DNA of 62,609 nucleotides. Origin: Candidatus Bathyarchaeota archaeon (lineage in GTDB: Archaea; Thermoproteota; Bathyarchaeia; Bathyarchaeales; Bathyarchaeaceae). Every line of letters starts with the position of its first letter. Positions within the stretch are counted from its first letter, which is position 1. The stretch is from contig SOJZ01000016.1 of NCBI GenBank assembly GCA_004376295.1, forward strand, positions 1 to 62,609. The letters are read 5' to 3'. The notes beneath the pieces are model-generated. The model was not told the DNA's origin. It did not search any database and saw only the letters and a program-made list of their open reading frames with translations. Shown here one piece after another: positions 1 to 16,116 of this stretch. A program made the position numbers and the translations under genes.

Positions 1-434
1 CCAGAACTGCGATTTCGCAACCTCCACAACTAGCCGCCCAATATAAAGCAAATTTCAGTTTTTCCATACGACCACCCATACGGAGACATTACACTAGAAT
101 CTGATAGAAAGAGAGCTTCTCAAATTTAAGTTTAGCCATTCGTGCGCGTTACGCGCCTTTTTTATGTTTTTGAAGGTAAATAATATACAAAACCGAGAAA
201 TACCCGATTCTATTGCTTATTTTGCTGTAAAATCTCTCAAAAAGGGACATTCCACTTCAGAAGCGCAAGCTTGCGAAATGGCTCTTTTCAAGACCATTGA
301 ATTAAGACGACCCAAACAATGCAAAACGCATGCATTCTATATATGGTACATATGAAATATATGCATAATGTTTCATAATAGTATTTAGAAATATTATAAA
401 CAGTTCTGAAACAATATTGTATTTGGGGAATGTT
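1..434. other. Leading intergenic stretch, no supported gene
   Basis: I see no recognisable coding sequence here. A 63-codon open frame from 164 has no ribosome-binding site and no family resemblance. The stretch holds a hairpin followed by a T-run (144-163) and an AT-rich TATA-like sequence near 390-400 that probably serves the gene beginning at 435. A GCATGCAT motif lies at 328-335. Confidence 0.5.
144..163 (+). terminator. Hairpin plus T-run, terminator-like
   Basis: GCGCG and CGCGC (144-148 and 152-156) form a 5-bp GC stem with a 3-base loop, followed directly by C and six T. This is the classical intrinsic-terminator shape on the + strand. The gene it would terminate lies off the left edge. 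Confidence 0.5.
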
Positions 435-743
435 TTGGCTGTCAGAAAACTCTCACAAAAAGAGGCGTTCTACTTCTTTACGTCAATTGGCAATTTCACT
501 GGCAGGATTGCAACATCACTTGAGAGTTTCTTGAAAGAGATTAGAGATGTCGAAGCAAAATCACTAGAGTTTCATCTGGAAAGGAAAGACTTTGAGAAGT
601 GGATCATTGACGTTCTGAGGGACACAAAGTTGGCTAGAGAAATCCGGAACCTGCGAAATCAAAAACTCACTGGAAAAGCCCTGCGGAATAGTCTTTGCAC
701 AACCGTTTCAAGACGTTATAAAGAGCTAGCAGGAAAAAAGTAG
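435..743 (+). CDS. DUF5752-like small protein
   Basis: A 102-residue protein resembling the archaeal DUF5752 family, whose biochemical role is not known. It has the aromatic start (FYFFTSIGNFTG), a helical core (SLEFHLERKDFEKWI) and a basic C-terminus. The TTG at 435 is preferred over the upstream TTG at 417: GGGGA sits just before it, and the paralogue at 24112-24423 begins at exactly the equivalent residue (MTFGKL against LAVRKL). The two copies share the FH..R.DF.KW core and the LRN.L C-terminal helix. A TATA-like box lies about 40 bases upstream. It is monocistronic and points toward the PhoU/DUF2061 pair. Confidence 0.7.
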   Translation: MAVRKLSQKEAFYFFTSIGNFTGRIATSLESFLKEIRDVEAKSLEFHLERKDFEKWIIDVLRDTKLAREIRNLRNQKLTGKALRNSLCTTVSRRYKELAGKK

Positions 744-803
744 TTAACAGACACCAAAATTTACCCCACAAATTTCATTATCCATGGCATGCATGCATAC
801 TGG

Positions 804-1004
804 CTACCCTTTTCCCCAATTGGTTCGTTCCCACAATCTTTCATGAAAGTAATAGAAAACAACCTGAATTACATTAAATATCGCAGTGATGTATGTCGTC
901 TGGATCCAATTGCCTGTAATGATCCATGTGGTTGCTCCTAATACTAAAATCCCCGTAACTCTCCAAGTTGCGCTCTTGAGCAGGCTTCTCAATTTTGTGT
1001 CCAA
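804..1004 (-). CDS. DUF2061 small membrane protein
   Basis: A 66-residue integral membrane protein matching the DUF2061 pattern: KSATWR near the N-terminus, two hydrophobic helices (about residues 15-30 and 36-52), and the diagnostic YYFHERLWERTNWG tail. The molecular role of the family is unknown. A clear ribosome-binding site (GGAGGGTG) lies five to ten bases before the ATG. The gene follows the PhoU-like regulator at 1037-2083 by 32 bases on the same strand, so the two are probably cotranscribed. A GCATGCATGCAT run (787-798) lies in the convergent gap beyond its stop. Confidence 0.85.
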   Translation of the reverse strand: MDTKLRSLLKSATWRVTGILVLGATTWIITGNWIQTTYITAIFNVIQVVFYYFHERLWERTNWGKG

Positions 1005-1036
1005 TTTTCACCCTCCAAGCACGCGCATTCCTCTTT

Positions 1037-2083
1037 CTATTTGAAGCTTGTTGACCAGCGTTTCGAACATATCTTAGTTTTTCTTTCAAGAGAGTTGTCT
1101 ATGGCTATCAAGGCAATGCGTGCACCATTGTGTGCTATTCTGGTGATGTTCCAAAGTATCAACCTCAAATGCGGTATTTCAGGAAGCTCCTGCATCAACC
1201 GGTCTCTTTCCAGCTCAATGAAAGTCCGTATTTCTAAAAGGCTGTTTGCGATCTTGATGTCGCCTATGAAGAAGCAGTCTACAGATTTTAAGACCAAGTC
1301 ATGGGTTAAGTCATTTAGATTGCTTATTCTTTCGATTACCCATTTAGGCAATTGATCTCTATATTTTTGTAGTAGTTCAATAACTCTGCGGGCTATTTCT
1401 TCAGCGTAATCAGCAATCAACTCAAGGTATCTCAACATCAGTCCAAAGTATAGAATGTGTAAGGGGTCTTTCAATCCTATTTCTTTAGCTACTTCTCTTC
1501 TTCTTTGTGCAGAAATTAGCAACCGCATCGCAAGCAAATACATCATATCAGCTTCATCCTCTCGGTTTATAGCGTCTTTTGCTAATGAAGTGTCGAACTC
1601 TACGAGTGCTTGGACTGCTTCCTTTACAATGGTCAACGAAATTATGGAAAGCCTTCGCAACAGCATGTCCAAATGGAATTTTCTTGGGTCAACAGAACAT
1701 TGAAGTACAACACGATCAGGCGTCTCCTCTACGATTCCTAATCCGATCAGTTTAGACATTATCCCCCTGACTTCTTCGATATGTTCAGAACGCATCCTTT
1801 CAGAAGATATTATTGAGAAGAGGTCACGGCCGAGAATGTAGCTACCAACGATTATCCGTTCCAACATCTTCGGGTCGTCACATAAATCAGAGTTGCAGAT
1901 GTACTCCTCGATTCCTTCTGTTGGTTTGAGAATTTTGCTTGGAAATAACTTAAGAGAGCCATCTTTTTCTGGCGCAAGGAAGACTGTGTCTCCACGTTTC
2001 AGATTCATTTCCTTCACATAGTTGCTGGGTAGAGAGACCGATAAGGTTGAGTAGCCAACTTTTTGTAACTTTCTACTCTCCAT
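1037..2083 (-). CDS. AbrB-PhoU phosphate-uptake-type regulator
   Basis: A 348-residue protein with an N-terminal AbrB/SpoVT swapped-hairpin DNA-binding domain (about 1-48, RKLQKVGYSTLSVSLP and RGDTVFL) followed by two helical PhoU-like repeats (about 115-340). This architecture is common in archaea, where it is annotated as a phosphate-uptake or metal-responsive regulator; no pst genes are adjacent. The acidic-aromatic PhoU metal motif EADMMY is visible near residue 175. The start at 2083 has no strong Shine-Dalgarno, and a TATA-like ACTATAAATAG lies only about 20 bases upstream, which could indicate a leaderless message. It is divergent from the RHH-GcvH-like genes. Confidence 0.85.
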   Translation of the reverse strand: MESRKLQKVGYSTLSVSLPSNYVKEMNLKRGDTVFLAPEKDGSLKLFPSKILKPTEGIEEYICNSDLCDDPKMLERIIVGSYILGRDLFSIISSERMRSEHIEEVRGIMSKLIGLGIVEETPDRVVLQCSVDPRKFHLDMLLRRLSIISLTIVKEAVQALVEFDTSLAKDAINREDEADMMYLLAMRLLISAQRRREVAKEIGLKDPLHILYFGLMLRYLELIADYAEEIARRVIELLQKYRDQLPKWVIERISNLNDLTHDLVLKSVDCFFIGDIKIANSLLEIRTFIELERDRLMQELPEIPHLRLILWNITRIAHNGARIALIAIDNSLERKTKICSKRWSTSFK

Positions 2084-2155
2084 ATGACACCCACCATCTA
2101 TTTATAGTATTTACTAATGGCTACAATATAAACATTACGTATTTATTGACATGCG

Positions 2156-2164
2156 TTATAAATA
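2156..2164 (+). promoter_or_regulatory. TATA-like promoter of the RHH-GcvH/hdr region
   Basis: TTATAAATA lies in the divergent gap, with a second candidate AATATAAAC around 2126-2134. Either could drive the + strand genes starting at 2191. The second leaves room for the GAGGTGGT ribosome-binding site (2179-2186) in the leader. The assignment is from sequence alone. Confidence 0.4.
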
Positions 2165-2190
2165 TACTTGGTGGAAAAGAGGTGGTATAT

Positions 2191-2778
2191 ATGCCAAAAT
2201 GGAAAACCGTAAGGCTCCGGCAAAAACTCGTAGAAGAAGCTAAGAGAGAGGTCGAAAGAAGCCAATACCAAAGTCTCTCCGAATTCGTTTCAGAAGCAAT
2301 TCGAAATCGCATGCAAACATTGGCCAAAGAAAGAGTATCGGAATATCTAGAACGAGATAGGAAAAGCAGGACGCTTTATCGCCACCATCAATTATTCTAT
2401 ACGCCAAAACACATTTGTGCCCACGCGGCTCTTCAAAGGAACGTCAAAATCGGAATAACCGATTATTTCCAGGACCAACTCAAGGAGATAGTTAATATCC
2501 GAACTGACAAAGCCGGAGAAAAAGTTTCTAAAGATGAACCCTTCGGAGTGGTAGAAACTTGGTGGTTCACATATGACTTGTATTCTCCATTAAACGGAAA
2601 GATAGTCTCAGTTAACAAAAAGATCATCGACGATCCATTCCTATTGAACGTAGATCCGTATCAGTGGGTTGTGGAAGTTGAGCCTACACACACTGAAGTC
2701 AACTCATGGATGAATGGGCTACTAAGTTTAGGAGAGTACAAAAATTTAGTCACTAAACTTGAAGGTCGACTTCACTGA
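2191..2778 (+). CDS. RHH domain fused to a GcvH-like domain lacking the lipoyl lysine (copy 1)
   Basis: A 195-residue protein. Residues about 2-45 form a ribbon-helix-helix DNA-binding domain (TVRLRQKLVEEAK then SLSEFVSEAIRNRM). Residues about 66-188 follow the glycine-cleavage H-protein fold closely: ITDYFQDQLKEIVNI, GEKVSKDEPFGVVE, DLYSPLNGKIVSVN and the C-terminal LSLGEYKNL. In true H protein the VESVKAA motif carries the lipoylated lysine. Here the motif reads VETWWFT, so the lysine position is Trp125 and the domain cannot carry lipoate. A GAGGTGGT site precedes the ATG; longer in-frame starts overlap the divergent phoU gene and lack one. It may be a repressor sensing a ligand or partner through the H-like domain. 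The paralogue follows 21 bases later, then the hdr operon. Confidence 0.85.
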   Translation: MPKWKTVRLRQKLVEEAKREVERSQYQSLSEFVSEAIRNRMQTLAKERVSEYLERDRKSRTLYRHHQLFYTPKHICAHAALQRNVKIGITDYFQDQLKEIVNIRTDKAGEKVSKDEPFGVVETWWFTYDLYSPLNGKIVSVNKKIIDDPFLLNVDPYQWVVEVEPTHTEVNSWMNGLLSLGEYKNLVTKLEGRLH

Positions 2779-2799
2779 GTGAAGATAGGAGAAAAGTAC

Positions 2800-3396
2800 A
2801 TGCCAGAATGGAAAACGATACGCGTCAGACAAGAACTCGCGACCGCGGCAAAGAGGACGCTTGACACGGGCCGCTACCGTAGTCTCTCCGAATTTGTTTC
2901 TGAAGCTATTCGACTGCGCCTCGATGAACTGAAGCAAAGCCATGAAAAGATTGCTGAGAAGCAGGCTAAATACCCCATGATCCAAGAACGACTGCTTTAC
3001 ACACCCAATCACATGTGGGCAATGGTAACTCCAGAAGGAAAAATAAGTGTAGGTCTATCCGACTACGCCCAAAGGCACCTGAAGGGAATAGCCGACATCC
3101 AGACCCACCCAGTTGGATATGAAGTGAAGAAAGGGGAGCCCTTCGGAGTTGTTGAAACATGGATGTTTATGTTTGACCTCTACTCGCCCGTCAGTGGCAA
3201 AATAATCAAAATCAATAAAGCCCTCCTAGACGAGCCTTACATAATCAACAAGGATCCATATGAAATAATATGGATAGCAGAAATCAAACCTAACACCATA
3301 GTCACATTAGAAGAAGAATTAAGGGATTTGATGGTGACAACTCAATATAAAACGTGGGTGCATAAGCCCAGTCGATCACGAATCCTAAGCATCTAA
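2800..3396 (+). CDS. RHH domain fused to a GcvH-like domain lacking the lipoyl lysine (copy 2)
   Basis: A 198-residue tandem paralogue of the preceding gene with the same order: ribbon-helix-helix at about 2-45 (SLSEFVSEAIRLRL), linker, and H-protein-like domain at about 65-190 (VGLSDYAQRHLKGIADI, KKGEPFGVVE, FDLYSPVSGKIIKIN, NKDPYE). The lipoyl-lysine position is Met122 in VETWMFM. It keeps even more H-protein consensus than copy 1, yet also lacks the lysine. The ATG at 2800 has GGAG eight bases upstream; an in-frame GTG at 2779 directly follows the previous stop but has weaker support. It ends 57 bases before the flavoprotein gene that opens the hdr operon, so it may regulate, or be cotranscribed with, that operon. 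Confidence 0.85.
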   Translation: MPEWKTIRVRQELATAAKRTLDTGRYRSLSEFVSEAIRLRLDELKQSHEKIAEKQAKYPMIQERLLYTPNHMWAMVTPEGKISVGLSDYAQRHLKGIADIQTHPVGYEVKKGEPFGVVETWMFMFDLYSPVSGKIIKINKALLDEPYIINKDPYEIIWIAEIKPNTIVTLEEELRDLMVTTQYKTWVHKPSRSRILSI

Positions 3397-3453
3397 TCAA
3401 CGCCCCTTTTTTTAACATCGCTAAGCGGACAACAGTGGGGGTGCTTCAAACGT

Positions 3454-5187
3454 ATGGCGGCAGCTAGTTGCGCTTTCAAGAACAAACGGAGGCTACCACC
3501 ATGTCGCGCCGCATGTCCCGCTGACGTGAATGTTCAAGGGTACATTGCTCTACTTCAGCAAGGCAAATTCAAAGAATCGGTGGAACTTATAAGAAAGAGC
3601 ATGCCCTTTCCGGCAATTTGCGGCAGAGTCTGCTTCAGTCCTTGTCAAGATGCCTGTTCAAGAAAAAACATCGACCAGCCTGTGGGCATTCGTTATTTGA
3701 AACAGTTTGCTGCAGACATTGAACGCGAACAAGGGCGAATCAAACCAGATCCCATACCTAAAACGCACAGCGAAAAAGTGGTGATAGTTGGCGCGGGACC
3801 AGCAGGACTGAGCGCTGCATACGAACTCGCAAAACTCGGCTATCCAGTCACAGTTTTTGAGCGTATGCCTGAACCTGGCGGCATGATGCGATATGGTATC
3901 CCTGACTATCGTCTGCAAAAATATGTTGTGACCAATGAAATAGCTTACATCCAAGATCTGGGTGTGGAAATCAAGACAGGAGTAGAATTCGGCAAAGACG
4001 TGCAGCTCGACACTCTACGAAACGAGGGCTACAAAGCTATATTCATAGCGAACGGAGCGCAACTGAGCAGAAAACTAAGGATACCAGGCGAGGATTTAGA
4101 GGGCGTTTTTCACGCGATTGAGTTTTTAAGGCATGTATCTCTAAGAAAAACCGTTGATGTAGGCGAAAAAGTTGCAGTCATTGGAGGAGGCAACAGCGCC
4201 ATTGATGCCGCTTGCACCTCGCTAAGGCTTGGGGCAAAAGAGGTCACGATTCTCTACCGTCGCTCGCGGAACGAAATGCCAGCGCTTCCCCACGAAATAG
4301 AGGCCGCCAAAGAAGAAGGAATTAAGTTCAATTTTCTAGTTGCACCCACACAAATTATTGGTGAAGAAGGCAGGGTCAAGATTATAGAATGTTTGAAGAT
4401 GGAGCTGGGAGAGCCTGACGCAAGCGGCAGAAGGCGTCCAGTGCCCATCCAAGGGTCTGAGCACACGTATGAGGTGGATACAGTAATTCCGGCGATCGGC
4501 CAACTGCCGGAAACTTCATGTCTACCTTCCATTCTTTTGGATGAGCGTGCACATGCAATTTCGGTTGATCCATTAACGCTGGAGACTAGTATCCCAGGCG
4601 TTTTTGCGGGAGGCGACATAGTCACTGGTCCCGCAAGCATCATCGAGGCTATAGGTGCAGGCAAACGAGCGGCTGTCTCGATCGACCGTTATTTAAACGG
4701 CAAGAATTTGAGGACTGGAAGAGAAGAGGAAATTGAGGAGACAACTTGGGTTAAAGACTGGGAAAAGATAACGAAAAAGCCTGAAAGATACACCGCCCCA
4801 CACATAGACATAGGGAGACAGAAAGTAAGCTTTGAGGAAGCCGATGAACTTTTAGCGAAGACCAAAGAAGTCGCCATGTTCGAAGCCAGGAGGTGTCTCG
4901 AATGCGGGCCATGCACAGAGTGTCTCGGAAGCGATGGGTTGTGTGAAGCTGACAAAGCTGTAGTTGATGAAACTTTATGCACCGGCTGCAACGTCTGCGC
5001 GGTAGTTTGTCCATACGGCGCCATAAAGAAGAACGAAAGGGGGATTGCACAAGTCGACGAAGATCTGTGTAAAGGCTGTGGAACCTGTAGTGCAAGTTGT
5101 CCCGACCGGGCGATTACTATGCAGCGATCTACAGTTGTTCAAATTGTGACTAATGTTGTAGCCGCTTTGGGGAGGGAGTCCGTATGA
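3454..5187 (+). CDS. GltD/NfnB-like NAD(P)H flavoprotein with C-terminal 2x[4Fe-4S]
   Basis: A 577-residue FAD- and NAD(P)-dependent oxidoreductase of the glutamate-synthase small-subunit family. An N-terminal cysteine cluster domain (CRAACPADVNVQGY, about 17-30, then CGRVCFSPCQDAC) is followed by the FAD site VGAGPAGLSAAYEL (about 110), the pyridine-nucleotide site IGGGNSAIDAA (about 241) and the C-terminal FAD contact GGDIVTGPA. The tail (about 480-560) adds CLECGPCTEC and two ferredoxin-type CxxCxxCxxxC motifs. There is no GltB partner nearby. It overlaps the next gene (ATGATG), so it probably feeds or draws electrons between NAD(P)H and the HdrA-MvhD complex. Confidence 0.85.
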   Translation: MAAASCAFKNKRRLPPCRAACPADVNVQGYIALLQQGKFKESVELIRKSMPFPAICGRVCFSPCQDACSRKNIDQPVGIRYLKQFAADIEREQGRIKPDPIPKTHSEKVVIVGAGPAGLSAAYELAKLGYPVTVFERMPEPGGMMRYGIPDYRLQKYVVTNEIAYIQDLGVEIKTGVEFGKDVQLDTLRNEGYKAIFIANGAQLSRKLRIPGEDLEGVFHAIEFLRHVSLRKTVDVGEKVAVIGGGNSAIDAACTSLRLGAKEVTILYRRSRNEMPALPHEIEAAKEEGIKFNFLVAPTQIIGEEGRVKIIECLKMELGEPDASGRRRPVPIQGSEHTYEVDTVIPAIGQLPETSCLPSILLDERAHAISVDPLTLETSIPGVFAGGDIVTGPASIIEAIGAGKRAAVSIDRYLNGKNLRTGREEEIEETTWVKDWEKITKKPERYTAPHIDIGRQKVSFEEADELLAKTKEVAMFEARRCLECGPCTECLGSDGLCEADKAVVDETLCTGCNVCAVVCPYGAIKKNERGIAQVDEDLCKGCGTCSASCPDRAITMQRSTVVQIVTNVVAALGRESV

Positions 5188-5957
5188 TGTTTAGGCCTAA
5201 AATCATTGGTTTTATATGTAACTGGAGTTTGCCTACAGAGGTGGACATTGCGAGCACTAGCAGAATACAAGGTTACCCCAAAATACGCATCGTACGAGTA
5301 ATGTGTGTTGGGAGAATCGATCCAGTTATCGTGCTGGAAACCTTTGCCCGAGGTGCAGACGGAGTTTTAGTAATTGGTTGTCACCCACCCGATTGCCATT
5401 ACATCGAAGGAAACCTTCAAGCAGAACGAAAAATTAAGATGCTGAAGAAACTCATTTCGCGAACTGGTCTTGAACCAGAGCGCCTTCGGCTAGACTGGGC
5501 TTATGCATCCGAAATTGAGTGCTTCCCAAAGATCGTTGACGATTTTAGAAATCAGGTGACGGCGCTAGGACCGTCTCCTTTAGCCGGAGAAGAACCAGAC
5601 AAAAACATATTGGCTGAAATAATGGCAGCCAAAGCGGTGGCGGGAGATTCTAGACTACGAACGCTGGTGGGCAGGGAGAAGCAAATGATCGAAGAAGGAA
5701 ACGTATACGATGAGAAGGTGGAGCAGGAGGAGTTTGACGAAGTGATGGATGAGAGCATTGATGCAGAGTACGTACGAAGCAGAATCCGTCTCCTAGTGAA
5801 GGATAACCCCATGTCCATTGAGGGGTTGGCCAAACATTTGAGCTTAGACCCGAAAAAGGTGTTGCGTCACATAGTAGTTTTGAGGCAGAGGGGTTTAGTT
5901 GCGCTGGATAGAATCGAAGGGGAGGACCCACTATACATCGCATTGGAGGTAGTGTGA
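5184..5957 (+). CDS. MvhD-like iron-sulfur subunit with C-terminal winged helix, one cysteine missing
   Basis: A 257-residue protein. Residues about 1-130 match MvhD/FrhD, the [2Fe-2S] protein that wires hydrogenase or dehydrogenases to HdrA (RIVRVMCVGRIDP, GADGVLVIGCHPPDCHY, EPERLRLDWA). The usual CNWC near the N-terminus is CNWS, so one otherwise conserved cysteine is serine; the canonical copy at 8967 keeps it. Residues about 130-195 form an acidic helical linker, and about 195-257 look like a winged helix-turn-helix (MSIEGLAKHLSLDPKKVLRH). The start overlaps the upstream stop and is preceded by GGAGGG. It could be a redox-sensing subunit or an altered electron relay; the electron-transfer role of this copy is uncertain. 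Confidence 0.8.
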   Translation: MMFRPKIIGFICNWSLPTEVDIASTSRIQGYPKIRIVRVMCVGRIDPVIVLETFARGADGVLVIGCHPPDCHYIEGNLQAERKIKMLKKLISRTGLEPERLRLDWAYASEIECFPKIVDDFRNQVTALGPSPLAGEEPDKNILAEIMAAKAVAGDSRLRTLVGREKQMIEEGNVYDEKVEQEEFDEVMDESIDAEYVRSRIRLLVKDNPMSIEGLAKHLSLDPKKVLRHIVVLRQRGLVALDRIEGEDPLYIALEVV

Positions 5958-8900
5958 TGAAGGAAAAGGTGGGCGCCGTGCTAGTCGTGGGTGGCGGAAT
6001 TGCCGGAATACAGGCGTCGCTCGATCTGGCTGACTCAGGATTCAAAGTGTATCTGCTAGATGAATCGCCCAGCATAGGAGGCACCATGACGCAACTTGAC
6101 AAAACGTTTCCAACTAATGATTGTGCAATGTGCATTCTCGCGCCGAAATTGGTTACGGCTGGAAGGCACCCCAACATTGAACTAATAATGGGCGCAGAAA
6201 TAAAGAGCGTCGAAGGTGAAGAAGGACACTTCCAGATCACGTTGGTAAGGAAACCAAGGTACATTGATGAAGAGAAGTGCACAGGCTGTGGTGTATGTGC
6301 TCAAGAGTGTCCTGTTGAAGCAATAGACGAATTCAATCAAGGCCTAAGCGAAAGAAGCGCGATCTACGTTAAGTATCCTCAGGCAGTTCCATTAGTTTAC
6401 GCCATTGACAGGGACAAGTGCATCGGCTGTGGCACCTGCCAAGAAGTCTGTAAGGCAGGCGCGGTCCAATATGACGAAAAGGAAAAGGAAATTGCGTTAC
6501 ATGTTGGTTCAATCATACTGGCACCAGGTTTCGAAGAGTTTGATCCAAAGCTCAAAAGGGAGTACAGCTATGGGCAATGCTCGAACGTGGTGTCAAGCAT
6601 TGAATTTGAGCGTATTTTAAGCGCTTCAGGACCCTATGGTGGATTGGTTTTACGCCCCTCTGATGGTAAGGTTCCACGGAAGATAGCATTCATTCAATGT
6701 GTTGGTTCACGTGACGCTAAGCTCGGAAATAATTACTGCTCCTCAGCTTGTTGCATGTACGCCATTAAAGAGGCAATCATAGCTAGAGAACACAACCCGG
6801 ATCTTCAGTGCACCATTTTCTTTATGGATATGCGCACTTACGGGAAGGAGTTTGACGCTTACTACAATAGGGCCGAAGACGAATACGAAGTGAAGTTCGT
6901 TAGATCTCGAGTATCCCATGTTGAAGAGGTTCCAGAATCACAAAACCTCTTGGTGAGATATGTTGAAGATGGGAATCCTAAGACGGAAGAAGTAGATCTC
7001 GTGGTGCTATCAGTTGGAATGAGGCCACCTAAACACGCTGAAGAATTGGCAAAAACGCTCGACATCAAATTAAATAAATATAACTTCTGTTATTTCGAAA
7101 CATTCTCACCATTAGAAACATCTAGGCCAGGAATATTCGTTTGCGGAGCGTTTTCCTCTCCAAAAGACATTCCTGAAAGCGTGGCGCAGGCGAGCGGGGC
7201 TGCAGTGAAAGCGGCTAGCTTGATTTCTTCAGAGAGAGGGATGCTCGCAACTGTAAAGGAGTATCCACCGGAGAGAGATGTATCTGGCGAGGAGCCCCGC
7301 ATTGGAGTTTTTGTCTGCCACTGCGGCATAAACATTGGTGGAATAGTCAATGTGCCGGAAGTCGTAGAGTACGTTAAAGCACTGCCAAATGTTGTTTACG
7401 CGGAGCACAATTTGTATACCTGCTCACAAGACACACAAAAGAGAATAAGGGAAATAATAAACGAACACAACCTCAATCGCGTGGTTGTGGCATCGTGCAC
7501 CCCCAGAACTCATGAACCGCTTTTCAGAGAAACCATTCGCGAAGCCGGACTTAACATTTACCTCTTCGAGATGGCAAATATTCGTGACCAATGTAGCTGG
7601 GTACACATACATGAACCTGAAGAAGCAACTAAAAAAGCGAAGGACCTTGTTAGATCCATCGTCGCCAAAGCCCGCTTGATGAAGCCTCTCAAAAAACCCA
7701 TGATTGATGTTACGCCCACTGGCCTAGTGATCGGTGGCGGCTTGTCTGGAATGACTGCTGCCTTAGAACTCGCAAAACAAGGCTTCGAAGTCCATTTGGT
7801 GGAGAAGGAGAAGGAACTGGGAGGGCACCTACGCCACATCCACTATCTTCTTGGATCTGAGGACCCGCAGGAGCGACTGAGGTCAATAATTAAGGAAGTT
7901 ACTGAAAACGAGAAGGTTCACGTTTATCTAAATTCTGAAATTTCTGATGTTGAGGGATACGTGGGGGGCTTCAAGACAACCCTAAACAGTGATGGAAAGA
8001 ACAAGAAAATAGACCACGGCATCGTGATAGTAGCCAGCGGAGCCATGGAATATAGGCCAACCGAGTATCTCTATGGCGTCAACGAAAGAGTGTTAACTCA
8101 GCGTGAATTAGAGGAGAAGCTGGCTAATGGACGGTTTAACGCTAAGACAGTGGCGATGATCCAGTGTGTAGGGTCTAGGAACAAGGAACACCCCTACTGC
8201 TCGCGAATATGCTGTTCTCAAGCCGTAAAGAATGCTTTAAAGATTAAGGAGTTAAGCCCTGAAACAGATGTGTACATCCTTTACAAGGACATGAGAACCT
8301 ATGGATTCTTAGAGGATTACTATCGTGAGGCGGCAAGCAAGGGAGTTTTGTTTATACGCTACGACGACGAAAACAAGCCTAGGGTTATTCAAGAAGATGG
8401 AAAGCTCGAAGTGATGGTGTGGGAGCCAGTTATAAAGATGTGGATTCCCATCGAGGCGGACCTCTTGGCACTGAGTGCCGCCACCATTCTAAGTTCAGAC
8501 AACGAACGCATAGCAAAAATGTTGAAAGTTCCACTCAGCAAAGATGGGTTCTTCTTGGAAGCTCACATGAAGCTCCGTCCCGTTGACTTCGCAACGGATG
8601 GCGTATTCCTTTGCGGGTTGGCTCACTGGCCCAAATCCATCGAAGAGAGTATCTCACAAGCGTGTGCGGCTGCGGCTCGAGCAATCACAATATTATCCAA
8701 GGAGGCATTAGAAGTAGAGGGCGCCATAGCAAGCGTTAACGAAGACTTCTGTGGCGGATGTGGATTCTGCGAGCCCGTTTGCGAGTATGGCGCCATCAAA
8801 ATGGAAGAAGTGGATGGAAAGCTGAGGGCGCACGTTATCGAAGCTCTATGTAAAGGTTGTGGTGTTTGCGGCTCCACCTGCCCTTCAGGAGCCATATCCA

Positions 8901-8974
8901 TGCTTCACTTCACGGACGACCAAATTCTTGCCCAAGTTAGGGCAGCGTTAAAGGAGGAAGCAAAATATGACTAA
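5957..8974 (+). CDS. hdrA: HdrA-like flavoprotein, double length (1005 aa)
   Basis: The FAD and iron-sulfur core of heterodisulfide-reductase-type electron-bifurcating complexes. HdrA is usually about 650 residues; this one holds two HdrA-type flavin modules. Module 1 (about 1-440) has GGGIAGIQASLDLADSG, NDCAMCILAPK and an inserted 2x[4Fe-4S] ferredoxin (KCTGCGVCAQEC, KCIGCGTCQEVC). Module 2 starts with the HdrA N-terminal Fe-S motif CHCGINIGG (about 453), then the FAD site IGGGLSGMTAALE (about 589), CVGSRN and CSRICC, and a C-terminal 2x[4Fe-4S] ferredoxin (CGGCGFCEPVC, CKGCGVCGSTC, about 930-985). ATG 5957 is chosen over GTG 5954 because GGAGGT is well spaced; it overlaps the upstream stop by one base. 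Confidence 0.92.
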   Translation: MKEKVGAVLVVGGGIAGIQASLDLADSGFKVYLLDESPSIGGTMTQLDKTFPTNDCAMCILAPKLVTAGRHPNIELIMGAEIKSVEGEEGHFQITLVRKPRYIDEEKCTGCGVCAQECPVEAIDEFNQGLSERSAIYVKYPQAVPLVYAIDRDKCIGCGTCQEVCKAGAVQYDEKEKEIALHVGSIILAPGFEEFDPKLKREYSYGQCSNVVSSIEFERILSASGPYGGLVLRPSDGKVPRKIAFIQCVGSRDAKLGNNYCSSACCMYAIKEAIIAREHNPDLQCTIFFMDMRTYGKEFDAYYNRAEDEYEVKFVRSRVSHVEEVPESQNLLVRYVEDGNPKTEEVDLVVLSVGMRPPKHAEELAKTLDIKLNKYNFCYFETFSPLETSRPGIFVCGAFSSPKDIPESVAQASGAAVKAASLISSERGMLATVKEYPPERDVSGEEPRIGVFVCHCGINIGGIVNVPEVVEYVKALPNVVYAEHNLYTCSQDTQKRIREIINEHNLNRVVVASCTPRTHEPLFRETIREAGLNIYLFEMANIRDQCSWVHIHEPEEATKKAKDLVRSIVAKARLMKPLKKPMIDVTPTGLVIGGGLSGMTAALELAKQGFEVHLVEKEKELGGHLRHIHYLLGSEDPQERLRSIIKEVTENEKVHVYLNSEISDVEGYVGGFKTTLNSDGKNKKIDHGIVIVASGAMEYRPTEYLYGVNERVLTQRELEEKLANGRFNAKTVAMIQCVGSRNKEHPYCSRICCSQAVKNALKIKELSPETDVYILYKDMRTYGFLEDYYREAASKGVLFIRYDDENKPRVIQEDGKLEVMVWEPVIKMWIPIEADLLALSAATILSSDNERIAKMLKVPLSKDGFFLEAHMKLRPVDFATDGVFLCGLAHWPKSIEESISQACAAAARAITILSKEALEVEGAIASVNEDFCGGCGFCEPVCEYGAIKMEEVDGKLRAHVIEALCKGCGVCGSTCPSGAISMLHFTDDQILAQVRAALKEEAKYD

Positions 8975-9401
8975 ATCTGAATTCAAACCAAAAATTATGG
9001 GTTTCCTTTGCAATTGGTGCTCCTACGCTGGTGCCGACCTAGCGGGTGTAAGCCGAATTCAATATCCTCCAACCCTTAGAATCGTGAGGGTGATGTGTAG
9101 CGGAAGAGTTCACCCAGCTTTCATCCTTGAAGCCTTCAGAAGCGGAGCAGACGGAGTTCTCGTCGCTGGCTGTCACCCTGGCGACTGCCACTACCTCTCG
9201 GGAAACTACAAAGCGCAAAATAGAGTTTTGTTGCTGCAGAAGGTTTTGGAACAGCTCGGTCTCGAGCCTGAGCGTCTGAGACTTGAGTGGGTCTCCGCCT
9301 CAGAGGGAGACAGATTCGCAATGGTTATTAAGGACATGACGAAGGAAATAAAGAAACTTGGTCAGAATCCTTTAAGGGCTGGAGGTAAGACCCGTGGCTG
9401 A
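8967..9401 (+). CDS. mvhD: MvhD-type [2Fe-2S] electron-transfer subunit
   Basis: A 144-residue canonical MvhD/FrhD family protein with CNWCSYAGADLAG, RVMCSGRVHP and GCHPGDCHYLSGN, keeping the cysteines absent from its longer relative at 5184. It accepts or donates electrons to HdrA. It overlaps the hdrA stop (ATGACTAA) and is followed by hdrC with an eight-base overlap. No MvhA/MvhG hydrogenase subunits lie in the window, so its redox partner is more likely the GltD-like flavoprotein of the same operon or an enzyme encoded elsewhere. Confidence 0.92.
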   Translation: MTKSEFKPKIMGFLCNWCSYAGADLAGVSRIQYPPTLRIVRVMCSGRVHPAFILEAFRSGADGVLVAGCHPGDCHYLSGNYKAQNRVLLLQKVLEQLGLEPERLRLEWVSASEGDRFAMVIKDMTKEIKKLGQNPLRAGGKTRG

Positions 9402-9945
9402 GACGGAGAAAATACAAGAAAGGGGGACGAAACAGAAAACGGTGCTCAAAATAACCGATATGGACCCCAAATTCAAATACGAGATCAGTAAGATCCCTGG
9501 CGCAGAGAAGGTCATGCTGTGCTTCCAGTGCGGTACATGCACAGCTGACTGTCCGATAGCGCGATTTGACGACTTTTACAGACCCAGAAAACTCATTCGG
9601 ATGACTCAGTTGGGATTAAAAGACAGGCTTCTTTCAAACGACGTCATCTGGCTTTGTTCCACATGCTTTACGTGTGTCGACCATTGCCCGCAAGACGTAG
9701 GAATCGCCAGTATTGTACGAGCTCTTCGAAACCTAACTGTAGAAGGGGGGCGTATGCCTGTCGGATATAAAGAGCAAGCTTCTAACATCCTAAAAACAGG
9801 CTACGCATACGTGATTTCGGACCTGCGGCTTAAAAAGAGGCAGCAGAAAGGACTGCCCGCATTGCCAAAAGCTAACTTAGAAAGTGTCGCAAAGCTTTTT
9901 GATATCACAGGATTTTCGAAGACGCTTGAAAAGGTGAGGACGTAA
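9394..9945 (+). CDS. hdrC: HdrC iron-sulfur subunit
   Basis: A 183-residue subunit with two [4Fe-4S] motifs typical of HdrC: CFQCGTCTADCP (about 43-54) and CSTCFTCVDHCP (about 87-98). It passes electrons between HdrA and HdrB in a soluble HdrABC complex. The GTG start at 9394 has an ideal GGAGGT upstream and overlaps mvhD. The C-terminal 60 residues are basic and variable. hdrB begins one base after its stop. No membrane helices are visible, so the complex should be cytoplasmic. Confidence 0.92.
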   Translation: MAETEKIQERGTKQKTVLKITDMDPKFKYEISKIPGAEKVMLCFQCGTCTADCPIARFDDFYRPRKLIRMTQLGLKDRLLSNDVIWLCSTCFTCVDHCPQDVGIASIVRALRNLTVEGGRMPVGYKEQASNILKTGYAYVISDLRLKKRQQKGLPALPKANLESVAKLFDITGFSKTLEKVRT

Positions 9946-9946
9946 A

Positions 9947-10828
9947 ATGACGGAGTTGAAGTACCTACTTTTTCTGGGATGCGCTATCCCGTACAGGCTT
10001 CCTAGTTACGAGATTTCCACGAGAAAAGTTCTAAGCAAACTTGGCGTAGAACTGGTGGAGATGCCAGAGTTTAATTGCTGTGGGTTTCCACTGGATCCAG
10101 TGAACCACGACATGATGCTCACCTTGGCAGCGCGAAACCTATGTTTGGCGGAACAACAAAATTTGAACATCATGGCCTTATGCAACGGATGTTTTGGTAT
10201 TCTAAACCATGTAAACAAAGAGCTCAAGGAAGACAAAGAAATTAAGGAGACGGTCAATGGATACTTGAAGGAAATAGGCATGGAATTTAAGGGAACGATA
10301 AAGGTTAAACATCTCATTCACGTTCTCGCAGAAGATGTCGGCTTTGAAAAAATAAAAGAAACTGTTCAGAACCCACTTAGTCAACTTCGCGTGGTGCAGC
10401 ATAGCGGATGCCACGTCGTTCGTCCCGCAAAGTACATAGGTTTTGAAGACCCAGAAAACCCCACAACTCTCAAGAAACTAATTCAAGTAACCGGCGCAAA
10501 ATGCTTGGACTATATGGATGAACCGGAGTGCTGCGGTGCACCAATAGTCGGTGTAAACGACAAAATCCCACTTCAGTTGGCTAGGGAAAAACTTGACCAC
10601 ATCAAGGCTGTAGGAGCACAAGCGATGATTACTGTGTGCCCTTATTGCCACATAATGTATGACCTTAATCAACCCAGAATAGAAAGAATTTTCAACGAAA
10701 AATTCGGCATACCCGTGCTACACTATCCACAGCTATTGGGGCTAAGCATGGGCATTTCCCCAGAGGAACTAGCTCTGAAAGACCTTAGAGTGAATGCAGC
10801 TGAAATTGTGAACATTTGTAGTCCGTGA
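9947..10828 (+). CDS. hdrB: HdrB catalytic subunit with two CCG domains
   Basis: A 293-residue protein with two cysteine-rich CCG motifs: GCAIPYR, FNCCGFP, CNGCFG in the first half and SGCHVVRP, EPECCGAP, CPYCHIMY in the second. These hold the noncubane [4Fe-4S] clusters that reduce disulfides or related acceptors in HdrB. The substrate in a non-methanogen is unknown, since CoM-S-S-CoB would not be expected without mcr genes. It starts one base after the hdrC stop, and the run of six overlapping genes ends here. Confidence 0.92.
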   Translation: MTELKYLLFLGCAIPYRLPSYEISTRKVLSKLGVELVEMPEFNCCGFPLDPVNHDMMLTLAARNLCLAEQQNLNIMALCNGCFGILNHVNKELKEDKEIKETVNGYLKEIGMEFKGTIKVKHLIHVLAEDVGFEKIKETVQNPLSQLRVVQHSGCHVVRPAKYIGFEDPENPTTLKKLIQVTGAKCLDYMDEPECCGAPIVGVNDKIPLQLAREKLDHIKAVGAQAMITVCPYCHIMYDLNQPRIERIFNEKFGIPVLHYPQLLGLSMGISPEELALKDLRVNAAEIVNICSP

Positions 10829-10872
10829 TCATTTGGCATGCATTTTTATGCTTACACAAAGAGAACTGACAA

Positions 10873-11379
10873 ATGAAAAAGCAGCATACAACGGATACAA
10901 TCGAACTTGAGAACAAGTTGCAGAGTTGGCTTTCTGATGCTCGAAACGTCGTAGTCACAGGCATTGGAAATCCTCTTAGAAAAGATGATTTTGTTGGAGT
11001 CAAAATTGTAGGAAATCTACATGGCAAAGTTTCACAGCTTGTTTACTTGATAGAATGTGAAACCGTTCCTGAGAGTTTCATAGGGCCGATAACCAAGTTC
11101 AAACCCACACATATACTACTAATAGACGCGGGTATTCTAAATCAAAAGCCTGGTTCATCAAAACTCATAGACCCCGACCAAATGGCAACTCAGACAGCAA
11201 TATCGACCCATGCGTTGCCTCTCAAAATATTCTGCAAGTACCTCGCAAAAACAACAGACGCTAAGATCGCTCTCCTGGTGATACAGCCGAAGGACACAAG
11301 CTTCGGAGAAGGATTAACCGCAGAACTAAAGGAAACTGAAAAACATTTGACTAATCTCCTGTCAAAATCTCTTCCTTGA
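10873..11379 (+). CDS. HycI-type hydrogenase maturation protease
   Basis: A 168-residue protein of the HycI/HyaD/FrcD endopeptidase family, which trims the C-terminus of [NiFe]-hydrogenase large subunits after nickel insertion. Visible motifs are TGIGNPLRKDDFVG at about 31-44 (metal-binding Asp), a mid-protein IDAG, and STHALPL, which supplies the metal-binding His. No hydrogenase large subunit lies in this window, so its substrate is encoded elsewhere. It lies 44 bases after hdrB with its own GCATGCAT (10836-10843) and AT-rich sequence upstream, so it may be transcribed separately. Confidence 0.85.
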   Translation: MKKQHTTDTIELENKLQSWLSDARNVVVTGIGNPLRKDDFVGVKIVGNLHGKVSQLVYLIECETVPESFIGPITKFKPTHILLIDAGILNQKPGSSKLIDPDQMATQTAISTHALPLKIFCKYLAKTTDAKIALLVIQPKDTSFGEGLTAELKETEKHLTNLLSKSLP

Positions 11380-11492
11380 GACAGCAAGTTCGTTGACTTG
11401 TCAGTGCTGATGACAAACGGGTTCTCCAGCCATCGTCTACACCGAGAGTCTACGGCTTAGCAATGCCTAGATGTTGAGGTCGACAAAAAAAC

Positions 11493-11500
11493 CTTTAAGA
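11493..11500 (+). promoter_or_regulatory. TATA-like box for the mgtE-type gene
   Basis: CTTTAAGA follows an A-run. An archaeal start site about 25 bases downstream would fall near 11521, the first base of the P1 helix of the structured leader. This coincidence supports both calls. Confidence 0.45.
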
Positions 11501-11520
11501 ACGCAAGTTTATGAAGCTTT

Positions 11521-11679
11521 AACACTCTTTGGGAACGCAAGGAGCTAAAGAAATAGTGTTAGAACCTGGGAAGCCTGAGTCATGCTTGGTTCCAGAAACC
11601 AGCAGAGACATATCTATGGGCACCGTCTACCCCGATAACGCGTTATCCGAAGAGCAGAGGAGACACAAGATGGGAGAGA
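11521..11679 (+). promoter_or_regulatory. Candidate structured 5' leader upstream of mgtE-type transporter
   Basis: Non-coding leader of about 160 bases with several complementary segments: AACACT (11521-11526) with AGTGTT (11555-11560), CTTT with AAAG inside it, GAACC/GGTTC (11562-11566, 11588-11592) enclosing AAGC/GCTT, and a perfect 14-bp palindrome GATAACG-CGTTATC (11634-11647). It ends in GGAGAGAG before the start. I match it to no known magnesium riboswitch (M-box, mgtA). It may be a regulatory RNA or hold an operator. A 92-codon frame through it is low-complexity and overlaps the real gene, so I do not call it. Confidence 0.45.
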
Positions 11680-12987
11680 GTGAGTGCGATGACGGTTCGC
11701 AACATAACCAACGAGATACTGTTACGAGTCAACAGAGACGGTGCGTCATCTACCCAGAGAGTTCAGCGAAGCGTGCTCCGAAGCCTCCTAAACATTCATC
11801 TAGATAGATTCCCTCAAACATTCAAGCAATCCATTTTTTCGTTGTCATTCAATTTGGGTGCTATTCTGGCTGGGACGCTGCTCGCAGTATATTTTGGAAT
11901 TTTCTCTCTTGCTCCATGGACACTTGCTGTATATCCAGGCATCCTAAGTATGAGAGGGGTTATAGGTGGTTTATTCAGCGGTCGCCTTAGCACAGGCTTA
12001 CACATAGGAACCGTGAGGGTTGGCTTCACCAAAAACACGAGAAATTTCTACACGCTGTGGCGAGCAACCATTGTACTAGCGCTTGAAAGTAGCGTTATGC
12101 TGGCGATAGTTGCTTCGTTATTTGGCATATTCTTTTGGGGAATCAATTTTATGGATTCTATCGCTATTTTAGGCGTTGTTACTGCGACCATGGCTTTGTC
12201 ACTTGTATTCATTTCTCCGATTACGGTGGCTGTTTCAGTTTTATCTTTTAGGCGTGGTTTGGACCCCGATGTCACCGTATATCCAATTATATCAACCGTG
12301 GCTGACATTGTTGTTACCGCATGCTACATTTTGGTACTAAACGCCTTCTTTTCGTTAAGCTATACAGGATATTACTTGATTGGAGTCTTCAACCTCGTTT
12401 TTCTATGTCTTGTGCTGTATATTTTGTCTAAAGATGTTAGGGAAGAAGAATTTGTTAAAACAATCAAAGAATCCTTTCTTACCATAGCTTTAGTGGCTTT
12501 CATTGTAAACGTTACAGGTTCCTTTCTCGCTAGAATTACTGAAGTTGTTGGCAGTAGACCGGAGATATACATTGTTTACCCTGCGTTGATCGATACTATA
12601 GGAAGCGTAGGATCCATTGTGGGTTCAACTGCCACTACAAAGCTGATTTTGGGAACGCTCAAGTCGTCTTTTTCATCGATTAAGCAGCATTTAAATGAGA
12701 TAGGTGGCGCGTGGGCGGCGTCGCTTGTGATGTTTATGCTTTACTCTATAATTTCATCTGTTACGCAAGGGATGGTCGTATTTGAGTTCTTAAGATTCAC
12801 AGCGCTACTTTTTGCCACAAACATCTTGGCTGCCTTGTCCATGGTTATTATCGCCTATGCTATAGGGGTACTTACATACAGAAAAGGATGGGACCCAGAT
12901 AACTTTGTGATACCCATTGAAAGCTCGTTGGCTGACACAATAACAACTATCGCCCTCCTCGCAGCTCTTACTGTAATAGGCTGGTAA
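11680..12987 (+). CDS. MgtE/SLC41-type divalent cation transporter
   Basis: A 435-residue integral membrane protein with two tandem MgtE membrane domains (about 45-230 and 255-435), each containing the family's conserved loop: YPGILSMRGVIGGLFSGRLS in the first and YPALIDTIGSVGSIVGSTAT in the second, and repeated DPD...PI sequences (LDPDVTVYPIIST, WDPDNFVIPIESS) before the closing helices. It lacks the cytoplasmic N and CBS domains of bacterial MgtE, as in SLC41-like archaeal proteins, so gating by those domains is absent. Probably moves Mg2+ or another divalent ion. GTG 11680 is used; ATG 11689 is an alternative. A structured leader precedes it. Confidence 0.85.
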   Translation: MSAMTVRNITNEILLRVNRDGASSTQRVQRSVLRSLLNIHLDRFPQTFKQSIFSLSFNLGAILAGTLLAVYFGIFSLAPWTLAVYPGILSMRGVIGGLFSGRLSTGLHIGTVRVGFTKNTRNFYTLWRATIVLALESSVMLAIVASLFGIFFWGINFMDSIAILGVVTATMALSLVFISPITVAVSVLSFRRGLDPDVTVYPIISTVADIVVTACYILVLNAFFSLSYTGYYLIGVFNLVFLCLVLYILSKDVREEEFVKTIKESFLTIALVAFIVNVTGSFLARITEVVGSRPEIYIVYPALIDTIGSVGSIVGSTATTKLILGTLKSSFSSIKQHLNEIGGAWAASLVMFMLYSIISSVTQGMVVFEFLRFTALLFATNILAALSMVIIAYAIGVLTYRKGWDPDNFVIPIESSLADTITTIALLAALTVIGW

Positions 12988-13035
12988 CCCCGGCGCTGTT
13001 GAAACTGCACAAAAAGATTATAGTGCCCATTTCTT

Positions 13036-13132
13036 CATGCATGCAACTGAAACAATGTTGTTTTTAGTGGTTCAAAGTTTTAAGACTATATTGTTTGAAT
13101 GTAGCAACCACTAAAACTAATGCATGCATGCA
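13036..13132 (+). repeat. Hairpin element copy 1 bounded by TGCATGCA
   Basis: A non-coding element of about 97 bases. The core is AACAATGTTGTT (13051-13062), outer stem TTTAGTGGTT (13063-13072) with AACCACTAAA (13106-13115), a 13-base 5' bulge, inner stem CTATATT/AATGTAG (13086-13092, 13098-13104) with a 5-base loop, and one base back to the outer stem. It is bounded by CATGCATGCA and TGCATGCATGCA. The copy at 15462-15558, in the opposite orientation, keeps every spacing and shows compensatory stem changes. It could be a MITE-like element or a structured RNA. Confidence 0.75.
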
Positions 13133-13198
13133 ACGCTTCATATGACCGATGATATTAATGGTGAATGGTTATGGACGAAAGAAGAGAGGTGAAAGAAC

Positions 13199-13300
13199 GT
13201 GCCATTGTATGAAAAAATCTGTGAACTTTGTGGAAAGGAATTTTCAACGACGGACAAAAAACGCCGAAAATGCATAAACTGTGAGTATGCCGAGAGATGA
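13199..13300 (+). CDS. 33-aa zinc-ribbon microprotein
   Basis: A 33-residue protein (MPLYEKICELCGKEF...) with CxxC at about 8-11 and a second CxxC (CINC) at about 25-28, the spacing of a single zinc ribbon. The GTG start at 13199 has GAGAGGTGA eight bases upstream. The stop TGA overlaps the ATG of the next small frame (ATGA), a typical coupled arrangement. A 16-codon frame from ATG 13142 precedes it and may be a leader peptide or nothing. Function unknown; such microproteins are often nucleic-acid-binding. Confidence 0.55.
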   Translation: MPLYEKICELCGKEFSTTDKKRRKCINCEYAER

Positions 13301-13443
13301 ATGAACAAATTAGAAAAGACCTTTGCGGTTGCGTTTGGAAAATTCAACAAGGCGTATGGGTTTGCATTAAAAAATGTAAGAAACACAGCAAACCAAAAAA
13401 GAAAAGACCATACAGACCTAAAGCGGAATGTGTAAGACCATGA
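13297..13443 (+). CDS. 48-aa Cys-rich basic microprotein
   Basis: A 48-residue frame coupled by ATGA overlap to the zinc-ribbon microprotein. It has CGC at about 10-12, then CIKKCKKH at about 23-30, and a Lys/Arg/Pro-rich tail. The Cys-Cys...Cys-Cys-His pattern suggests a small metal-binding, possibly nucleic-acid-binding, protein. Two other frames over the same bases are also open (+ strand from 13301 and the antisense), so the assignment rests on the cysteine pattern and the coupling. A TGCATGCATG sequence follows the stop. Confidence 0.4.
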   Translation: MNEQIRKDLCGCVWKIQQGVWVCIKKCKKHSKPKKKRPYRPKAECVRP

Positions 13444-13462
13444 CAAGTGATGCATGCATGTT

Positions 13463-14254
13463 TTACGTGTACATGTTCAGCATTTTCTGCCAGATTTTGC
13501 TTTTCTGTATCACGAGGGAATATTCTTTCAGTTCTTGTTTTCTCTTTTTATAGTCTGGGCAGAATTTTTCGACTATATACCAGAATTTTCTGTTGTGATT
13601 TGGTTGTGTGGCGTGGGCGAGTTCGTGTATTACTATGTATTCTATGATTCGTTTCGGTAATGCTGCAAGTTTGATGTTGAAGTGGATGTTGCGTTTTTGG
13701 GAGTAGCTTGCCCATCTTGTTTTTTGGTTTTTTATGTAGAATTTACCGATTGGAGCTTTCATTACCCTTTCATATTCACGCAGGAAGTTGGTCAGCGTCT
13801 TGAGGAGTTCCCCTCTTATCCACTTCCTGAGATATTCATACTCCCGACTTCTGGGTTTACCTGATCCTGGCATTCGTATTCGAATCTTGCTGTCATCCAG
13901 TGAAATAGCGTATTTTTCGCTCTTGTAGACTTCAACGTCGTAGAATTTACCAAAGAGTAGTAGCTTGTCTTTCCGTATAGCTACCTCACCTCTGCCACTA
14001 TTTCTCAACCTTGACTGTTTTGCATGCATCTGCATACGCGTATCTTGAATCTTCCTTCTAACGCCATCTACAACAAGCAAAGCACCCAGACCCCAGAATA
14101 AAAATGGCAGACTTTCAATAAGTGGCTTCGCTAAGGGTGGAGGGTAAATCAGTATCCACAGTATTTGCTTGGACCATCGCCACAAGATGAAACCGATAAC
14201 GATTAACAATATTCCTACACAAATTTCGAAAACGGCTACTCTTCTACTTTCCAT
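13463..14254 (-). CDS. YgjP/M48-type zinc metalloprotease with two N-terminal membrane helices
   Basis: A 263-residue protein. Two hydrophobic helices (about 8-26 and 45-62) anchor a cytoplasmic domain of the DUF45/YgjP type. The catalytic signature VIHELAHATQPNH gives HExxH plus a third His, and the family's KTRWASYSQKRNIHFNI and PDYKKRKQEL motifs are present (RWGSC is the usual form). The substrate is unknown. It is convergent with the microprotein pair and lies in the TGCATGCA-rich patch; one TGCATGCA is inside the gene (encoding MQMHAK). Confidence 0.8.
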   Translation of the reverse strand: MESRRVAVFEICVGILLIVIGFILWRWSKQILWILIYPPPLAKPLIESLPFLFWGLGALLVVDGVRRKIQDTRMQMHAKQSRLRNSGRGEVAIRKDKLLLFGKFYDVEVYKSEKYAISLDDSKIRIRMPGSGKPRSREYEYLRKWIRGELLKTLTNFLREYERVMKAPIGKFYIKNQKTRWASYSQKRNIHFNIKLAALPKRIIEYIVIHELAHATQPNHNRKFWYIVEKFCPDYKKRKQELKEYSLVIQKSKIWQKMLNMYT

Positions 14255-14302
14255 GATAATACATTGAATAGCCGTGGTAGAAATTGATTGCGATTACACA
14301 AA

Positions 14303-14364
14303 AAGAGTGGCGAGTGCTTGTCGGACACTCTTGAAGTCCAGAGGTTGATGTCAACCCCTCTGGA
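14303..14364 (+). ncRNA. Candidate structured RNA, two strong hairpins
   Basis: AAGAGTG (14303-14309) pairs with CACTCTT (14326-14332). Five bases further, TCCAGAGGTTG (14337-14347) pairs with CAACC and TCTGGA (14352-14356, 14359-14364) across a CC bulge. The 62-codon frame crossing it has no family resemblance. TGCATGCA lies about 30 bases downstream. Strand is undetermined; the inverted repeats could also be protein-binding sites. Confidence 0.35.
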
Positions 14365-14444
14365 AACATTTCAGCGAATGTATCCTCAAATATACATGCA
14401 TGCATCACGCATGACGAAGAGGCTTCATTGCAGCTTGGCAGTGC

Positions 14445-14678
14445 CTAATTGGGAGGCTCTTCACGCTTACGGTTAATGACAGGAGGAATAACCCAATACT
14501 TCCAGCCATCACGATAAATGGTGTGATAAACCCGACCTTCATAGATCTCTGTCACTGGGCTGTTTAAGATCTCTTTTGCGAGCTCTGGTTCCTGTTTGAT
14601 TAAAATGTATTCGTGAGGGCAGACGTAGTTAGTTGGTGTCCAGGTTAACCCTTTCTGCTTCTTTGCCGTGGGATTCAC
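14445..14678 (-). CDS. Small conserved hypothetical protein (77 aa)
   Basis: A 77-residue soluble protein. Its pattern (WTPTNYVCPHEYIL, EGRVYHTIYRDGWKYWVIPPVINRKR) resembles small archaeal proteins of unknown function in which a Cys-Pro-His-Glu-Tyr segment and a C-terminal YWV..NR recur. One Cys and two His are close enough to hint at metal binding, but I cannot name a family. It stands alone between the structured element at 14303 and the divergent DUF998 gene, with a perfect 12-bp palindrome in the shared upstream region. Confidence 0.55.
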   Translation of the reverse strand: MNPTAKKQKGLTWTPTNYVCPHEYILIKQEPELAKEILNSPVTEIYEGRVYHTIYRDGWKYWVIPPVINRKREEPPN

Positions 14679-14707
14679 CCCATGCTTTTTATCAACGTTT
14701 TTGTAGT

Positions 14708-14719
14708 ATCATTAATGAT
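14708..14719. promoter_or_regulatory. 12-bp palindrome in divergent promoter region
   Basis: ATCATTAATGAT is a perfect palindrome between the 77-aa gene and the DUF998 gene, followed 15 bases later by CATGCATGCATGC (14735-14747). Either could be an operator. No regulator can be assigned. Confidence 0.3.
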
Positions 14720-14813
14720 GAACTCCGTTTTAAACATGCATGCATGCGCAGGGGGATACTCGAATAGTGCCAATTAGATATGCAAATATAGTAGATCGGA
14801 TGATTTGTACCAA

Positions 14814-15458: not shown

Positions 15459-15461
15459 TTT

Positions 15462-15558: not shown

Positions 15559-15597
15559 ACAAAACATATAATGAGAGATAGAAGGTCTGGTTTTGCT

Positions 15598-16101: not shown

Positions 16102-16116
16102 ATCTATCTGCTCCTT

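Follow-up and report, generated by a model that had tools for sequence, protein, structure and literature searches.

The genes P1 and P2 of Candidatus Bathyarchaeota archaeon each encode a ribbon-helix-helix (RHH) domain fused to a domain resembling the glycine cleavage H protein (GcvH), and lie directly upstream of an operon for heterodisulfide reductase (Hdr) subunits. The fusion is a real, conserved and apparently undescribed regulator architecture of Bathyarchaeia, tied to Hdr and hydrogenase genes. Both genes are contained in the window, the whole stretch of 62,609 nucleotides that was analysed (contig SOJZ01000016.1); the features of the locus are collected in Table 1. In the openly accessible literature, we found no paper combining RHH with heterodisulfide reductase, nor one combining a GcvH-like with a DNA-binding domain, nor one that describes such a fusion. 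Papers containing both RHH and glycine cleavage were unrelated, judging by their titles and abstracts.

Table 1. Features of the P1-P2 locus, in window coordinates.
Feature	Positions	Strand	Description
gene A	1037..2083	-	MazE/AbrB-type DNA-binding N-terminus and PhoU domain; divergent partner at 39/44 fusion loci
Box1	2105..2116	.	palindrome TAGTATTTACTA (TAGTA-WW-TACTA); 21 nt to gene A start, 86 nt to P1 start
Box2	2126..2146	+	ATATAAACATTACGTATTTAT; sole genome site with 2 or fewer mismatches
P1	2191..2778	+	195 aa; RHH aa 1-60, H-protein-like domain aa 66-188; lipoyl Lys replaced by Trp125
P2	2800..3396	+	198 aa; RHH aa 1-50, H-protein-like domain aa 63-188; lipoyl Lys replaced by Met122
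gene C	3454..5187	+	GltD/NfnB-like FAD-NAD(P) oxidoreductase with ferredoxin domain; first hdr operon gene
gene D	5184..5957	+	MvhD (aa 7-129) fused to C-terminal ArsR-like winged helix (aa 198-239)
gene E	5954..8974	+	HdrA2-type HdrA
gene F	8967..9401	+	MvhD without winged-helix extension
gene G	9394..9945	+	HdrC
gene H	9947..10828	+	HdrB
HycI-type [NiFe]-hydrogenase maturation protease	10873..11379	+	MvhG-MvhA in this place at many sister loci

Architecture and Fold of P1 and P2

The start of P1 is separated from the divergent gene A by 107 nt, and 21 nt lie between the P1 stop codon and P2, which has a GGAG ribosome site just upstream and an alternative GTG start at 2779. The Pfam GCV_H model matched both proteins (E = 1.4e-22 for P1 and 3.1e-28 for P2); against the NCBIfam gcvH model they scored 75 and 88 bits, below its curated cut-off of 115.85 bits. 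AlphaFold monomer models were built from the family alignments and compared with H-protein crystal structures in Foldseek. The best matches of the P2 model had E = 6e-13, TM (target) 0.88-0.93 and rmsd 1.2-1.4 Å, and the P1 model matched with E = 7e-12 and TM (target) about 0.9; the best ten H-protein crystal matches of the two models spanned TM (target) 0.86-0.93 over about 125 columns. Both predicted structures thus match the H-protein barrel.

The RHH region was recognised at the level of the family. None of the Pfam RHH models reached its cut-off with P1 or P2 themselves; among 42 family members, RHH_1 matched 26 (E below 0.1; best 4.3e-6) and ParD_antitoxin matched 13, and the RHH of the fusion gave a weak profile match to NikR chains (E about 0.03). 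The monomer models show two helices in this region, with a low-confidence N-terminus and the strand missing. The initial annotation had assigned an RHH and a GcvH-like domain to both proteins, with Trp125 and Met122 in place of the lipoyl lysine. The GCV_H matches, the structures and the RHH profiles in the family confirmed P1 and P2 as RHH and H-protein fusions, and the residue numbers were borne out by the H-protein alignment, in which W125 of P1 and M122 of P2 occupy the lipoyl lysine column.

Distribution and Conservation of the Fusion

Full-length fusions with 53-77% identity to P2 were found in about 40 genomes out of the 257 genomes of Bathyarchaeia searched, and P1-type tandem copies share about 40-45% identity with P2. 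In a scan of 84,980 species, full-length matches were limited to records of Candidatus Bathyarchaeota or of uncultured archaea matching genomes of the same class. Every match in other organisms began at residue 39 or later, most of them at 61, corresponding to plain GcvH.

The H domains of 49 fused proteins were compared with 22 ordinary GcvHs from the same class. Position 122 is lysine in all 22 ordinary proteins and in none of the fused domains. The preceding residue, valine or isoleucine in ordinary GcvHs, is tryptophan in every fused domain (49/49), and position 123 is phenylalanine in 47 of them, while the acidic residues 119 and 126 that flank the hairpin tip are retained in nearly all. 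The changes cluster in the lipoyl hairpin and in strand 96-103 (E..YVELP in ordinary GcvHs), with the remaining H sequence kept. Loss of the lipoyl lysine in all 49 domains next to an invariant tryptophan argues that the altered tip is under selection and, as judged from these alignments, that the lipoyl-handling face was remodelled and then kept constant. A quick tree from few columns placed the fused H domains in one starred clade (99*), separate from all sampled lysine-bearing GcvHs, with P1 as a single clade inside the fused group. One fusion event followed by tandem duplication would fit this topology.

The window's genome also encodes three ordinary GcvHs; two further weak GcvH matches were rejected as biotinyl carriers. 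One of the three (L009:6306-6722) is convergent to a cluster rich in HdrA and MvhD (9799-17088) and forms a second GcvH-Hdr neighbourhood. In another genome (G043), a stand-alone H-like domain (L175:238-723) has a Trp-Asn-Phe hairpin and neither the lysine nor an RHH.

Gene Neighbourhood

Recurrence of the fusion beside hdr genes was upheld by the genome-wide search, which found it so placed in many genomes. Genes for HdrABC or [NiFe] hydrogenase lie within 9.5 kb at 34 of the 44 fetched loci, and at most of the others a contig end or a 100-N scaffold join interrupts the locus (as such a join does in L078). Downstream of the fusion, there usually come gene C (NfnB/GltD-like), MvhD with winged helix, HdrA, MvhD, HdrC and HdrB, in this order, and in many relatives MvhG and MvhA after them. 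Gene A adjoins the fusion at 39 of these loci, several of the remainder being contig ends. Reciprocally, nearly every genome with a gene C orthologue (60% identity or more) has the fusion in front of it. G217 (L169), with genes C and D and no fusion, is a true exception to this pairing, and G186 (L079) a possible one. An apparent hdr operon lacking the fusion in G060, with an "MttB-NfnB" chimera (L168:8100-10511), was rejected as an artefact of a 100-N scaffold join. No Rfam family matched window positions 1-15000.

Most loci of family f5 have a different set of genes: the fusion, a TauE-like transporter, a 124-aa protein, NuoE, NuoF, a HoxU-like protein, and the small and large [NiFe] subunits. 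At the f5 loci with this NAD-type [NiFe] hydrogenase, no Hdr gene adjoins the fusion. The common denominator of the fusion loci is therefore hydrogenase and H2-linked electron transfer or bifurcation, rather than Hdr as such.

Gene D is conserved at its full length (about 250 aa) in the sister operons, as an electron-transfer subunit carrying a DNA-binding domain inside its own operon.

The Promoter between Gene A and P1

The divergent promoter contains two conserved elements. Box1 occurs in perfect form once in the 1.89-Mb genome and at most once in each of 34 relatives; it is perfect in 10 of 38 promoters, compared to 0.02 expected from shuffling. At most loci its distance is 17-21 nt to gene A and 86-91 nt to the fusion gene. 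Several loci with long gaps have two copies, one per gene, the second being 87-91 nt before the RHH gene. Box2 (ATATAARCATTAYGTATWTAT) was found in nearly all P1-bearing loci, and both boxes are degenerate in family f5. Box1 abuts the TATA-like sequence TATAAATA of gene A, and Box2 contains the TATA-like sequence GTATTTAT of P1. Off-locus copies of Box1 at G056:C93 and G063:C108 were discarded because they fall within an acetyl-CoA synthetase gene, and a third at G123:C4 because it is in an unrelated frame.

There was no good Box1 in front of the hdr operon. In the window, the region from P2 to gene C contains a T-rich stretch and no clear TATA box. In the f4 loci that were read, a TATA-like promoter belonging to the hdr operon itself follows a T-rich stretch, also without Box1, and direct control of hdr is thus not supported at these loci.

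RHH Genes without an H Domain

Box2 recurs before four RHH genes that lack an H domain, two of which lie beside another hdr operon. One of these, reached via an off-locus Box1 in G188, has both Box2 and a perfect Box1; it encodes a 119-aa protein with a P1-like head and a Cys-containing tail, and is divergent from another hdrA. The second (G063) is downstream of another hdrA-hdrC-hdrB set. The gene in G185 lies at the main locus, beyond gene A, and that in G182 has an AbrB-like gene about 4.6 kb away. In G063, G185 and G182, Box2 has 2-3 mismatches and is located 55-65 nt from the start, an arrangement that was not reached by any shuffle. Since the RHH head is the simplest common factor of the box-bearing genes, Box1 and Box2 are most likely RHH operators, as candidates identified from sequence. 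Box2 could also be a promoter retained after gene duplication. When RHH strand variants and box variants were paired by eye, there was no clear indication as to which protein binds.

We considered the possibility that gene A, itself an AbrB/MazE-PhoU protein, reads Box1, that the RHH of P1 and P2 merely tethers or auto-represses, and that the H domain serves as a scaffold without regulatory role or as an adaptor of the Hdr or hydrogenase complex (docking as LbpA might, without lipoate). Gene A is a more constant neighbour of the fusion than the hdr operon is, and at most loci Box1 sits close to its start. However, no gene A was present in the fetched regions around the H-less genes of G188 and G063, which carry Box2 and, in G188, the perfect Box1; furthermore, the second Box1 of the long intergenic regions is retained before the RHH gene. 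We consider this explanation unlikely, and prefer to regard the RHH head as the reader of the boxes.

In G053, the gene at the equivalent locus (L225:5758-6564), which is flanked by the AbrB-PhoU gene and an HdrA-MvhD-HdrC-HdrB operon, encodes an RHH joined to DUF2096 (E = 3e-12) rather than to an H domain. This speaks for C-terminal domains being interchangeable sensors on one RHH reader head. Three H-less RHH proteins of 111-119 aa (L222:5695-6054, L223:9178-9537 and L224:5965-6300) end in a Cys/Trp-rich tail with CPMFGWF, GCK and CTW motifs, which is a possible metal or Fe-S sensor; the genes in L222 and L223 adjoin another hdrA/hdrC/hdrB operon.

Comparison with Known Systems

NikR-type regulators are a known one-component example in which an RHH is followed by a C-terminal sensor, a nickel-binding ACT-like domain. 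The fusion has a similar RHH reader head, small C-terminal domain and hydrogenase-linked context, but its C-terminus is an H-protein barrel. GcvH-L of Streptococcus pyogenes (5a35), which occurs in a macrodomain operon context, has an H-like fold that matches P2 (E 2.5e-6), although the identity is 13% and GcvH-L has no RHH.

With GcvH (PF01597), P1 and P2 share the whole fold (TM about 0.9) and most conserved residues; they differ in the missing lysine, the remodelled hairpin and facing strand, and the N-terminal RHH. Nor are P1 and P2 linked to gcvT or gcvP; their neighbours are AbrB-PhoU and hdr genes. The H domain could nevertheless be a dead mimic of apo- or holo-H protein by which lipoylation or glycine cleavage is monitored, being sequestered by lipoate ligase or by P- or T-protein, with the RHH reporting this. 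Retention of the fold and of most of the H-protein sequence is in keeping with this idea, as are the ordinary GcvHs of the window's genome and the presence of P-protein in 19 of 23 genomes searched. However, P-protein was not found in four of the genomes with the fusion, three of which are at least 94% complete; the P-protein gene of the window's genome is on another contig (C12); and the part that was rebuilt is the very hairpin read by lipoate enzymes. The four genomes without P-protein and the unrelated neighbourhood, of Hdr and hydrogenase rather than gcv genes, make glycine cleavage less likely as the signal, and we regard the explanation as quite improbable.

LbpA, which belongs to the sHdr sulfur-oxidation system, is likewise a GcvH homologue associated with Hdr-type proteins; it carries lipoate and is encoded with shdr and lipS1/S2-slpl genes (PMC10332631). 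The fusion lacks the lysine and lies beside an HdrA2-MvhD-HdrCB(-MvhGA) operon, with no shdr and lipS1/S2-slpl genes at the locus. The analogy to LbpA and sHdr drawn in the initial annotation consequently had to be given up: the operon after P2 belongs to the HdrA2/MvhD/HdrC/HdrB type, a lysine that could be lipoylated is missing, and the f5 fusions stand next to [NiFe] hydrogenase instead. P1 and P2 are neither GcvH nor LbpA, because the defining lysine is missing and the operon type differs.

Decaying GcvH duplicates, or antitoxin-like RHH proteins with an accidental C-terminal tail and no dedicated function, are hardly credible: although the head resembles ParD/CopG antitoxins and G166 has one degenerate copy without the RHH, the proteins persist at the identity noted above in about 40 genomes with W121 invariant, frames intact and synteny and promoter conserved, and no toxin gene was recognised at the locus.

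A Model for P1 and P2

We propose, with moderate confidence, that P1 and P2 are local, autoregulating one-component RHH regulators of hydrogenase and Hdr genes with a co-opted, non-lipoylated H domain as sensor; DNA binding, the direction of regulation and sensing are what we infer. The RHH N-termini would pair into dimers that bind Box1 and Box2 in the promoter shared with gene A, and P1 and P2 would thereby control their own gene or genes and gene A, as well as the hdr operon, which in the window's genome would be reached by read-through. Repression is proposed because the boxes overlap or abut the TATA-like sequences of gene A and P1, such that their occupancy would exclude TBP/TFB from both. 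In the H domain, the hairpin has been rebuilt as an aromatic and hydrophobic tip (Trp-Met-Phe or Trp-Trp-Phe), which may dock a partner protein or ligand of the HdrABC-Mvh or [NiFe]-hydrogenase system and so alter DNA binding. This docking is the weakest step of the model.

The initial annotation had suggested a regulator family beside hdr that reused the H fold as a sensor of an Hdr-linked signal. A regulator-like family does emerge from the conserved fusion, the recurrent hdr adjacency and the conserved palindrome in the divergent promoter; Hdr as such does not, given the f5 loci beside hydrogenase, and the sensing role stays conjectural. A broader and more tentative possibility is a modular family in which one RHH head carries swappable sensors (a dead H-protein, DUF2096 or a small Cys-rich tail), each serving one hdr or hydrogenase operon. 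The dead H-protein might then dock the Hdr-hydrogenase machinery and couple transcription to the state of the electron-bifurcating complex.

As far as the searched literature shows, regulation of HdrABC-Mvh and hydrogenase genes is undescribed in the abundant, uncultured Bathyarchaeia. That dozens of related archaea have the fusion next to genes for hydrogen-linked electron-bifurcating enzymes points to an undescribed mode of control, for which the 107-bp divergent promoter (2084-2190) provides a defined target that is directly testable in vitro. If the model is true, one of the oldest carrier folds would have been put to a new use, with a lipoate-less H-protein as the sensor of a DNA-binding head.
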